This document shows, piece by piece, positions 18,126 through 39,753 of a DNA stretch of 64,000 bases. Every line of letters begins with the position of its first letter. Position 1 is the stretch's first letter. The notes under the pieces were generated by a model that saw only the letters and a program-made list of their open reading frames with translations, did no database searches and was not told the origin of the DNA. The stretch comes from Deltaproteobacteria bacterium (lineage in GTDB: Bacteria > SAR324 > JACQKK01), in the NCBI GenBank assembly GCA_029858505.1, contig JAOUEW010000001.1:1-64000 (forward strand), in the 5' to 3' direction. The position numbers and the translations under genes were made by a program.

Positions 18126-19049
18126 ATGAGCGGCCAAACCAGCAATGGCATTGTGTACCTGAACGGAAAATACCTGCCGGTCGAGCAGGCCAACGTGAAC
18201 GTGCTGGACCGGGGGTTTATCTTCGGCGACGGCATTTACGAAGTGCTGCCCGCTTACGACAGCAAGCCCTTCCGGGTGGCCGACCACCTGGCCCGCATGG
18301 GGCGCAGCCTGGAAGGGGTGATGATCGCCAACCCCCTTACCCCCGCCCAGTGGGAAGCCGTGTTTCACCAACTGATTGAAGCCAACGGCGGGGGGGACCT
18401 TTCTATCTACATTCAAATTTCCCGCGGGGTGGCCAAGCGAGACCATGTGTTTCCCGCCAATGTGACCCCCACCGTGCTGGTGGTGTGCACCCCCCTGGCC
18501 CCTCCCCCGGCGGCGTGGCGCGAGACCGGCATGAAGTGCGCCCTGCGGGAGGACATCCGCTGGCAGCGCTGCGACATCAAATCCATATCGCTGCTGGGCA
18601 ACCTGCTGATGCGCCACCAGGCCACCCTAGAGGGCGCCAACGAAACCATTTTGGTGCGCGACGGATTTCTCACCGAGGGGTCTTCCAGCAACGTGTTCGT
18701 GGTGAAAAACGGCAAGGCGGCCACACCCCCCAAGAACAACCTGATTCTGTCGGGCATCACCCGAGAAGTGACCGTGGAATTGGCCCCCACCCTGGGCATT
18801 CCCTGCGAGGAGCGGGCGGTGAGCCAGCAAGAACTGCTGTCTGCCGATGAAATCTGGGTGGCTTCCAGTTTCCGCGAGGTGGCCCCGGTGTGCTGGCTCG
18901 ACGGCAAAAAAGTGGGCAATGGCCTGCCCGGACCCCTGTGGAAAAAAATATGGGATGGATTCCAAGCCTACAAGCGGGGCCAAGCCGCCCTGGCTGGTAT
19001 TCAACTGGGGGCGGGGGGTTCCGCCCAAGCGGGCGCACCCCACCCATGA
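18126..19049 (+). CDS. dat: D-amino-acid aminotransferase (class IV PLP enzyme)
   Basis: PLP-dependent transaminase, probably interconverting D-alanine and D-glutamate for peptidoglycan. It is 307 aa. Fold-type IV landmarks: LDRGFIFGDGIYEV near the N-terminus, the cofactor Lys in CDIKSISLLGNL, TEGSSSNVF (phosphate/cofactor contacts) and the C-terminal SSFREV. The CDIKS context resembles D-alanine aminotransferases more than branched-chain enzymes, which carry longer N-termini. The stop overlaps the larC start by 4 bp (ATGA). A branched-chain or 4-amino-4-deoxychorismate lyase role is less likely. Confidence 0.85.
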   Translation: MSGQTSNGIVYLNGKYLPVEQANVNVLDRGFIFGDGIYEVLPAYDSKPFRVADHLARMGRSLEGVMIANPLTPAQWEAVFHQLIEANGGGDLSIYIQISRGVAKRDHVFPANVTPTVLVVCTPLAPPPAAWRETGMKCALREDIRWQRCDIKSISLLGNLLMRHQATLEGANETILVRDGFLTEGSSSNVFVVKNGKAATPPKNNLILSGITREVTVELAPTLGIPCEERAVSQQELLSADEIWVASSFREVAPVCWLDGKKVGNGLPGPLWKKIWDGFQAYKRGQAALAGIQLGAGGSAQAGAPHP

Positions 19050-36838: not shown

Positions 36839-36952
36839 GGGTTTTGGCCTAGGGGGGAACCAAGAGACTTTTGATGTGTCCATGAATCCATGGCCAACTA
36901 TCACGGCTTGGGGAAACCACCCCTATAAACACTTGAAAAAAATTTTGGCCGT

Positions 36953-38302
36953 ATGGATCCAAACCTGATCGAAACTTGGAACCGCTGTCGTCAGGCCTTG
37001 ACGCATCGTCTTCCGCCAGAAGATGTGGAAAGCTGGCTGGCCCCTTTGCGATTGTCGGCTTTTTCTCCGGGGCGGGTGGCTTTTACCGGCGTGCCCAACA
37101 CATTTTTTTTAAACCACATCCTGCGTCATCACTTGACCTTGCTGCGCCAAAACCTTACCCAGTGGTTTCAACCCCTGGGTCTGGTGGAACCATTCCGGCT
37201 GGAGTTGGCCCTGGGCAACGGCGAGGAACCCGCCCCGGCGGATAGCATCGCGGCCGCTCCTTCTCGATTCGACCCCCCGCCAGGATCGGCACGCTTTACC
37301 TTTCAAAACTTTCAAGCCACGGGAGACAACCATGCGGCGGCGGCCCTGGCCCAAGAAGCCGCCCTGTTCCCGGGGCGGTACAATCCCTTAATGCTGGTGG
37401 GAGATGAGGGGCTGGGAAAAACCCATCTGTTGATGGCCACGGCGGGGCTCATCCGGCGCAATCATCCTGGGGCAAAAATCGCCGTGTTATCGGCGGAAGA
37501 TTTCACCAACGCCGTGTTGGAGGGCATCCGCTCCAAGCGCATGGAACAGTTGCGGCAGACCTTTCGCAACCTGGACTGCCTGCTGATGGATGGCTTGGAG
37601 TTTCTGCCCGTCTCGGTGAAAGCCCAGGAAGAACTGACCCACACCTTCGACGCGTTGCACGGCAAGGGGCGGCAGTTGGTGCTGGCGGGGCGCCAGCTTC
37701 CCCGAAGCATGCGGGATTTGACCGAGGGGCTGCGCAGCCGGCTAGAAATGGGGGTCATTGCCCAGCTGGTGCCATTAGATGAACGCGGGCGAACCGAACT
37801 GGTGCGGAACCGCGCCGCCGAGGAAGGATTGAAATTGCCAGAGGAAGGCCTGGGCTTGCTGGCCCGCCGCATTCGGGGAAACCCACGGCAGTTGGAGGGT
37901 GTGATCTTAAAACTGGTGGCCTTCAAATCGTTGTACCAAAAAGATTTCACCCTGGAATTCATTCAAGAACAAGCGGCACCCTACCTAGAGAGCGAAGAAA
38001 GCCATGGCGGGTTGATCCCCCAAGACAAGGTATTGGAAGACGTGTGCGATCATTTTTCCATCTCCATGAAAACGCTGTTGGGTGCTGGGCGTACAGCCCA
38101 TCTATCGGCCATCCGGCGGATTGCCATGTATCTGCTGAGACATTCCTCTGGTTTGGCCCTCAAAGACATCGGTCAACGGTTTAATCACCGCACCCACAGC
38201 ACTGTTTTGCACGGATTAAAGTTGCTAGAAAAAGACATGGCGGAAGATCCGGGGTTGAAAAAACTGGTGATGCGGTTACAAGCCCATCTTTCCCAAAGAT
38301 AA
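36953..38302 (+). CDS. dnaA: Chromosomal replication initiator DnaA, divergent
   Basis: An AAA+ initiator of 449 aa with all four domains: domain I (about 1-80), a short linker, the ATPase (about 112-345) and the DNA-binding domain IV (about 355-449). Walker A is GDEGLGKTH (150-158). Walker B reads LLMDGLEF, so the second Asp of the usual DD pair is Gly214. Sensor 2 is GNPRQLEG with Arg312. In the recognition helix NHRTHSTVLHG (411-421), Thr414 and Ser416 replace E. coli Asp433 and Thr435; His434 is kept (His415) and Arg399 is kept (Arg380). A TATAAACAC element (36924-36932) in its upstream region resembles the downstream repeats. Confidence 0.92.
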   Translation: MDPNLIETWNRCRQALTHRLPPEDVESWLAPLRLSAFSPGRVAFTGVPNTFFLNHILRHHLTLLRQNLTQWFQPLGLVEPFRLELALGNGEEPAPADSIAAAPSRFDPPPGSARFTFQNFQATGDNHAAAALAQEAALFPGRYNPLMLVGDEGLGKTHLLMATAGLIRRNHPGAKIAVLSAEDFTNAVLEGIRSKRMEQLRQTFRNLDCLLMDGLEFLPVSVKAQEELTHTFDALHGKGRQLVLAGRQLPRSMRDLTEGLRSRLEMGVIAQLVPLDERGRTELVRNRAAEEGLKLPEEGLGLLARRIRGNPRQLEGVILKLVAFKSLYQKDFTLEFIQEQAAPYLESEESHGGLIPQDKVLEDVCDHFSISMKTLLGAGRTAHLSAIRRIAMYLLRHSSGLALKDIGQRFNHRTHSTVLHGLKLLEKDMAEDPGLKKLVMRLQAHLSQR

Positions 38303-38628
38303 ATCGGGATCACGGCATGATGTGTGTTTTTGGATTTCGACTAAAATTTATTCGACAAAACATCGACATGCAAAACACTATGGAATCAAGGAATTTAAAA
38401 TGTTTTTCGTGCGGGAGGGCATCATTTCCAGTATAACAGGCTAGGTTTATCGGCATTGGGAAAATTCTGCAGAACCACCCACGGAATTCGAAATTATTAT
38501 AAACATTTATTAAACATATTATAATCAATAAATAAACATACCGAAATTACTAATAAACATAACAAAACAAATAGATATATAAAATATTAACAAAATAACT
38601 CTCTTTCTACTTCTACTATTAAATAAAC
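38303..38628. other. Candidate replication origin (oriC) or origin-like AT-rich region
   Basis: A 326-bp gene-free gap between dnaA and dnaN. Its right half (about 38480-38628) is strikingly AT-rich in a GC-rich genome, as expected of a DNA-unwinding element. No TTATNCACA box is seen on either strand. Instead five direct TAAACAT repeats occur. Placement and composition argue for an origin; the gene-strand pattern around it does not (see findings). Confidence 0.65.
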
Positions 38629-38630
38629 AT
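38500..38630 (+). repeat. Five direct TAAACAT repeats, candidate variant DnaA boxes
   Basis: TAAACAT occurs at 38500, 38511, 38533, 38554 and 38624, all in the same orientation. The first four are spaced 11, 22 and 21 bp, close to one, two and two helical turns. The first reads TTATAAACAT, which matches the TTATNCACA consensus at eight of nine positions. The last overlaps the dnaN start codon. Confidence 0.85.
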
Positions 38631-39753
38631 GGATATTCTTCTCTCTAAATCCGTCTTAGTACAAGCGCTGCAAATCATTACGCCCATTACCGACAAAAGC
38701 TCGACCAAGCCCATCTTGTCGAACTTTCTGCTGACCTCCGAAGGCGTGGGAGAAAACCAAGTTGAGTTTTCGGCCACGGACTATGAAATCTCCATTCGGG
38801 GACGATTTCCCGTGACGGTGAATCAAAGCGGATCCATCTGCGTGTCGGCGAAGAAACTGTTGGATATCTGCAAGGAATTCCGCGAGGAAACCATTTCCAT
38901 TCGTTCCGATGACCAGAAATGGGTGATGGTGGAAAGCGGTCCTTCTAAACTGCGGCTGCCCACCATGGAAATTGGGCTGTACCCCCGCATGGAATCGGTG
39001 AAACTTTCCCAATCTTTCCGCATGGAACCCAAAGCCCTGCGGCAGACCATTGAACGCACCAAGTTTGCCATCCAAACCAACGAATCCAGAAAAACCCTAA
39101 TGGGCGTCTGCCTGAATATCAGCAACGGCCATACCGCCCGCTGGACCACCACCGACGGCCACCGGCTGGCCCAGGTAATGCTGGAGGTAGACCAGCCCCA
39201 ACTGAATGCCCCGCCGGAAATCATCATTCCCCGAAAAGCCCTGGAGGAATTGTCGAAGGTGGCCCAGGCCGCCCAGGGACCGGTGGACATTTCGTTTGAT
39301 GAACGCACCCTCACCGCCAAGGCTGGCCAGCTGGAACTGACCACCCGGCTGATAGAGGGAAAATTCCCCAACGTGGATCCGATCATTCCTCGGGGGAATC
39401 CCCGCCACGTGGTGGCAGAACGAGACCGCTTGCTGAGCACCCTCACCATTATTTCGTTGATGAGCGGTGACAAAATTAAGCCGGTGAAACTGAACCTGGA
39501 GGCGGGCAACATTCGGTTGGAAAGCGAAAAAAGCGAAGTGGGAGAGGTGAGCGACGAACTGCCGGTGGAATACGCCGGAGAGTCCGTTCAGGTGGGATTC
39601 AACGCCAGTTACCTGCTAGACGTGCTGAAGGTGCTGGACGGCGCCAAGAACGTGCAGATGGAACTGAACGGCCCCCTCAATCCCTGTCTGATTCACGTGC
39701 CGGGAGACGACTCCTTTCTGTCGGTGGTGATGCCCCTGCGGATCGAATGGTGA
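38629..39753 (+). CDS. dnaN: DNA polymerase III sliding clamp (beta subunit)
   Basis: A 374-aa ring-forming processivity clamp. The three-domain pattern is clear: MDILLSKSVLVQALQ at the start, the DGHRLAQVML block in the middle (about residues 182-191) and a C-terminus ending VVMPLRIEW, a variant of the common MPMRL end that forms part of the partner-binding pocket. It follows the AT-rich gap and overlaps recF by 7 bp. Its start codon lies within the last TAAACAT repeat, so initiator binding there would block it. Confidence 0.97.
   Translation: MDILLSKSVLVQALQIITPITDKSSTKPILSNFLLTSEGVGENQVEFSATDYEISIRGRFPVTVNQSGSICVSAKKLLDICKEFREETISIRSDDQKWVMVESGPSKLRLPTMEIGLYPRMESVKLSQSFRMEPKALRQTIERTKFAIQTNESRKTLMGVCLNISNGHTARWTTTDGHRLAQVMLEVDQPQLNAPPEIIIPRKALEELSKVAQAAQGPVDISFDERTLTAKAGQLELTTRLIEGKFPNVDPIIPRGNPRHVVAERDRLLSTLTIISLMSGDKIKPVKLNLEAGNIRLESEKSEVGEVSDELPVEYAGESVQVGFNASYLLDVLKVLDGAKNVQMELNGPLNPCLIHVPGDDSFLSVVMPLRIEW

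Follow-up and report, generated by a model that had tools for sequence, protein, structure and literature searches.

DnaA and its box are treated as all but invariant among bacteria, and programs that look for origins commonly search for TTATCCACA, allowing a few mismatches. The locus described here raises the question of whether a dnaA-dnaN gap that lacks canonical boxes is a chromosomal origin, and whether initiator and box have changed together there. The window, by which we mean the whole 64-kb stretch of DNA analyzed, is the beginning of a 982-kb contig (C4) in a genome of 2.79 Mb. Within it, 326 bp separate dnaA (36953..38302, 449 aa) from dnaN (38629..39753; TIGR00663, 265 bits, above cut-off), both on the forward strand, as are all features given below. 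This gap (38303..38628) is the predicted oriC based on a skew minimum at 43 kb, AT-richness and phased boxes. It contains no TTATNCACA, as had been proposed, and no TTWTNCACA, the only three window matches to which lie at 18937, 33364 and 49961.

The original prediction described TAAACAT five times in the gap, at 38500, 38511, 38533, 38554 and 38624, with 11, 22 and 21 bp between the first four copies; positions, common strand and spacings are all correct. The first four copies fall in candidate boxes TTATAAACA (38497..38505), TATTAAACA (38508..38516), AAATAAACA (38530..38538) and TAATAAACA (38551..38559). The fifth had been counted with the array but is out of phase and overlaps the dnaN start codon, as part of a second AAATAAACA copy (38621..38629) that is probably no box. 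The description was also incomplete in omitting three features. Near the dnaA stop is a pair of candidate boxes, TATTCGACA (38349..38357) and ACATCGACA (38360..38368), set 11 bp apart like pairs found in relatives. A possible box, ATATTAACA (38584..38592), lies in phase 33 bp from the previous box and is a single weak match to TN[A/G]ACA. Finally, a DnaA-trio-like tract, CTACTTCTACTATTA (38607..38621), is read from the sequence 14 bp after ATATTAACA. Basal unwinding regions follow the rule of a DnaA box, a spacer of no more than 16 bp and three or more NAN trio motifs (PMC8287927); in the gap the trio-like element of this layout is clear and the adjoining box is the weak one. Of 20,000 dinucleotide shuffles, 0 brought TAAACAT to five copies in the whole gap, and 1 of 20,000 did so when the AT-rich part was shuffled. 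In a fairer test, some 7-mer reached five copies in 67 of 5,000 shuffles of the gap (about 1.3%). On repeat counts the gap by itself is thus only suggestive, and it is the relatives that decide.

The genomic setting fits an origin. Read in stretches, contig C4 reaches its lowest cumulative GC skew at 43 kb, about 4.4 kb from the gap. Past this point the curve rises to the contig end with some flat stretches, and its falling side is short because the contig starts 38 kb to the left of the gap. The gap is among the AT-richest stretches of the contig and is its densest 300 bp for TAAACAT. Thus, the hallmarks of oriC, a cluster of initiator-type sites with AT-rich DNA near dnaA and dnaN and near a GC-skew minimum, coincide here. 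A genome-wide search for canonical boxes elsewhere, which the original prediction had named as refuting evidence, revealed no canonical cluster, with 30 scattered copies of TTATNCACA versus 20 of a reversed control. The closest TTATNCACA pair (C14:136781/136955) was rejected as an origin, being not AT-rich and having one of its two members in a coding frame. The genome's only other close TAAACAT pair (C4:134451-134469) was also set aside: it lies inside a cluster of ATGATCATG-type repeats (C4:134430-134600; L035 1480-1600) that is flanked by two genes, one of them apparently for a Fic-type protein.

The product of dnaA is a divergent DnaA. Matches to PF00308 (136.9 bits, cut-off 23), PF08299 (66.8 bits, cut-off 31.5) and PF11638 are above cut-off, the full-length protein falls below the TIGR00362 equivalog cut-off (301.4 versus 343.9 bits), and the best solved-structure matches to its AlphaFold2 model are DnaA structures, 8btg first. 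It is the single DnaA of the genome, as judged by a single genome-wide PF08299 match. Alignment confirms the proposed residue changes: codons 38192..38203 encode T414-H415-S416-T417, aligned to E. coli D433-H434-T435-T436, where the recognition helix begins, with Thr replacing D433, Ser replacing T435, and H434, T436 and R399 kept. In the model, T414 directly precedes helix 415-431. Residues reported to contact bases are 399, 423, 432-435 and 438-439 (PMC5043019). Elsewhere in the protein, Gly occupies the position of the second Walker B acid (E. coli D236) at residues 213-214 (LLMDGLEFL), and the usual sensor-1 Asp is missing at about 241-250 (QLVLAGRQLP; SDRYP in E. coli). The Walker B site varies among family relatives (G, N, S or D), while the sister order retains this acid as well as the sensor-1 Asp; ATP hydrolysis may be altered in the order to which the window belongs.

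We examined 52 genomes of the window's phylum, all of one class. Six genomes of the family, from different genera and sharing about 40% DnaA identity with the window, have readable gaps of about 330 bp. The comparison of gaps and domain IV that the original prediction had proposed speaks for a joint change of box and initiator. TN[A/G]ACA occurs in the six gaps 32 times toward dnaN and once in reverse (shuffle mean 7.1, largest 15 in 300 shuffles), and TNCACA once. Exact 11-bp pairs number 8 (shuffle mean 0.017) and are present in five of the six genomes, GC-richer gaps included; the remaining spacings are mostly near 22 and 33. Most family gaps have two groups of boxes, one 20-90 bp after dnaA and the other nearer dnaN. 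The family motif is NNNTN[A/G]ACA, with mostly A/T at positions 1-3 and mostly A/C at position 5, so a non-canonical box was rightly foreseen, while the specific reading TTATAAACAT was too narrow. Position 6 is A in 15 and G in 12 of the 27 phased family sites, which were chosen by the TN[A/G]ACA pattern itself. The site upstream of dnaA that had been offered as a sign of autoregulation, TATAAACAC at 36924..36932, is present, but as a lone site without a consistent counterpart in the six relatives its role is doubtful, and autoregulation through it is not supported.

Residue 433 reads T, T, A, T, T, S, T in the family and is N in 11 of 11 sister-order genomes; among 79 readable diverse loci it is D in 71. 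Arrays of the sister order (f3/f4) are sparse, and the argument there depends on TTWTNAACA-type counts of A12 versus C4 at position 6. Where they meet the dnaN start, sister-order gaps finish with CCTACTACTACTATG or a near variant of it. In family f2 we detected no clear boxes in the dnaA flanks and did not locate the origin there. Several fairly complete f2 genomes (G011, G026, G027, G028, G035, G037) yielded no DnaA C-terminal domain, likely owing to assembly breaks, as the DnaA piece of G028 lies at a contig edge.

The informative box change is at position 6, which is C in TTATCCACA and A or G in the window's family; position 5 is less telling, since E. coli likewise leaves it free. The data support loss of Asp433 as the protein change paired with it. 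Thr435Ser, which the original prediction had included, is not supported as a cause of specificity because DnaAs reading DHST keep C6 (14 of 22).

A second class came to light through a non-Asp locus with T433, L051 (a Victivallales record); in a larger search the class was represented by 198 genomes. Its roughly 60 different DnaAs have N, T or S at 433, none Asp, and mostly Ala435. Many of these genomes carry TTATTAACA or TTATCAACA upstream of dnaA in exact 11-bp steps; 24 of 43 NHAT genomes of the class have no array near dnaA. Position 6 was A53 G8 T2 C0 in N/T/S-H-A-T (xHAT) arrays and T14 G3 A1 C0 (n=18) in arrays of a nested Pro435 clade (S/T-H-P-T), one of which reads CTATCTACA, TTTTCTACA, CTATCTACA. 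A nested pair with Asn436 showed T3 A1. Pro435 loci L286, L287, L292, L315 and L317 have three to four TN[T]ACA boxes in exact 11-bp steps upstream of dnaA. Pooled D433 loci, by comparison, gave C114 A39 T17 G4 (C 114/174). With kinship ignored, Fisher tests returned 4e-23 for C in D433 versus xHAT and 2e-10 for T in xHPT versus xHAT. A DnaA tree that omitted the C-terminal 80 residues placed the second class next to D433 relatives (Chthoniobacterales, Spartobacteria and a PVC bacterium) and away from the window's phylum, a position that favors separate losses of Asp433. A tree-based pair test comprised two supported contrasts, too few to reach significance. Collectively, the family and second-class counts support well the co-change of initiator and box put forward in the original prediction, shorn of Thr435Ser and of the exact TTATAAACAT reading; the counts are strong, yet the independent events are few.

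There are exceptions. Two D433 genomes (L223, L244) have mainly A6 sites, two N433 genomes (L011, L013) have TTTTGCACA, and His433 lineages keep C6. Clostridia relatives with His433-Tyr434 were rejected as an extension of the pattern because C6 is often kept. The class of L110 was also rejected as uninformative; its loci L249-L278 have Lys or Arg at 433 throughout and few boxes of any type beside dnaA. In loci L050, L108 and L112 (Acidobacteriota and Granulicella records), Asn takes the place of E. coli R399 and His that of D433, and almost no TTWTNNACA sites were found near dnaA.

It is very probable that the gap is a genuine origin of non-canonical type and that its boxes and DnaA changed together. 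The arrays with their phase and direction, the residue states and the association between them are observed directly. We consider it likely, from comparison of sequences, that the whole scheme holds: a chromosomal origin with phased boxes, a change of base 6 through loss of Asp433, a code in residues 433 and 435, and opening at the dnaN side. In this scheme DnaA, binding through domain IV, would assemble head to tail on NNNTN[A/G]ACA boxes that all point toward dnaN in 11-bp helical phase, one group near the dnaA stop and the other before the trio-like tract at dnaN. Opening would then follow on the dnaN side, in the AT-rich and trio DNA, much as in B. subtilis. The shift of position 6 from C to A or G is proposed to result from loss of Asp433 where the recognition helix begins; residue 433 may read base pair 6 directly, a link that we infer from the statistics. 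Residues 433 and 435, perhaps with 436, would form a compact code that sets base pair 6, in which Asp433 specifies C; Asn, Thr or Ser433 with Ala, Ser or Thr435 specifies A or G; and Ser or Thr433 with Pro435 specifies T.

Loss of Asp433 might instead merely relax specificity, leaving weak ordinary boxes whose position 6 goes unread and is filled by base composition. This explanation, which we judge unlikely though worth weighing, draws on a minority class of A6 sites in D433 genomes (49 seen versus 16 expected) and on family f1, in which A and G each occur at position 6. It predicts C at chance level, whereas C is found in 0 of 63 positions in xHAT arrays; moreover, f1 gaps of about 50% AT still have no C at position 6, and T, not A, fills this position in the Pro435 clade. 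Much less probable is that the repeats belong to another protein acting at the origin, for example a regulator or nucleoid protein, with DnaA using other, unrecognized sites. Some bacteria do have additional origin-binding proteins, and the assignment of the repeats to DnaA is a prediction from sequence comparison. The core T-N-N-A-C-A, however, equals the DnaA box at all positions but 6, and position 6 tracks DnaA residues; the dnaN-ward direction and 11-bp steps recur in D433 genomes, which have 11-bp pairs of canonical type of their own (24 CC, 16 AC). Chance repetition in AT-rich DNA can be dismissed as highly improbable, for although shuffles of the gap alone now and then yield a 7-mer five times, the relatives already contradict it with a strand bias of 32 to 1 and with exact 11-bp pairs, which five of the six genomes show, GC-richer gaps included.

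The favored reading, an origin whose box changed at position 6 with loss of Asp433, could extend beyond the lineages studied here. Whether residues 433, 435 and perhaps 436 constitute a general code at base pair 6, such that the box is predictable from the protein even in unstudied phyla, we regard as evenly balanced. If true, such a code would perhaps cover the odd boxes of Thermotoga and mollicutes, and origins could be located in phyla where present tools seek the wrong motif. The joint change of an essential initiator and many sites would also become testable by substitution of a few residues. Recurrence of the paired change in a separately placed second class points to a simple initiator-DNA code. 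A6 boxes are not new, having been proposed earlier for mollicutes (PMC3322544, PMC2751442). The tie to the protein looks new, as do the lack of C6 in non-Asp arrays and the T6 switch with Pro435; no report of any of the three was found in the literature searched, which takes in only a minority of subscription journals.

Compared with known systems, the gap shares with canonical TTWTNCACA origins of E. coli and B. subtilis the bases T4, A7, C8 and A9, phased head-to-tail sites, the dnaA-dnaN location and an AT-rich opening side. It differs in having A or G rather than C at position 6, looser positions 1-3 and a DnaA without Asp433; nine-base high-affinity boxes listed in passages of a review (PMC4285127) keep C at position 6. 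Head-to-tail assembly of DnaA that opens AT-rich and trio DNA has been described for B. subtilis (PMC10721633). With this basal unwinding system (PMC8287927, PMC10721633) the gap shares the trio-like CTACTTCTACTATTA at dnaN, 14 bp past a possible box, although here the adjoining ATATTAACA is a weak match and the tract is known from sequence alone. The Thermotoga maritima box is given as AAACCTACCACC in that review (PMC4285127) and as the 9-mer ACCTACCAC elsewhere (PMC10316083). T. maritima resembles the window in having a divergent box and a DnaA without Asp433 (Ser-His-Pro in alignment); its box is longer and GC-richer than the window's, and can be set in the T6 register of the Pro435 clade, although this register is ambiguous. 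Boxes proposed for mollicutes, TT(T/A)TCAACA (PMC3322544) and, in the Mycoplasma hominis group, TTATTAACA (PMC2751442), share A at position 6, a likeness of predicted boxes alone, as given in excerpts of those reports. Also comparable are the epsilonproteobacterial boxes with a TTCAC core, for which a lineage-specific box change has been considered together with residues of the recognition helix (PMC5043019); there, in contrast to the window, the change lies at position 5, and both C6 and Asp433 are kept.
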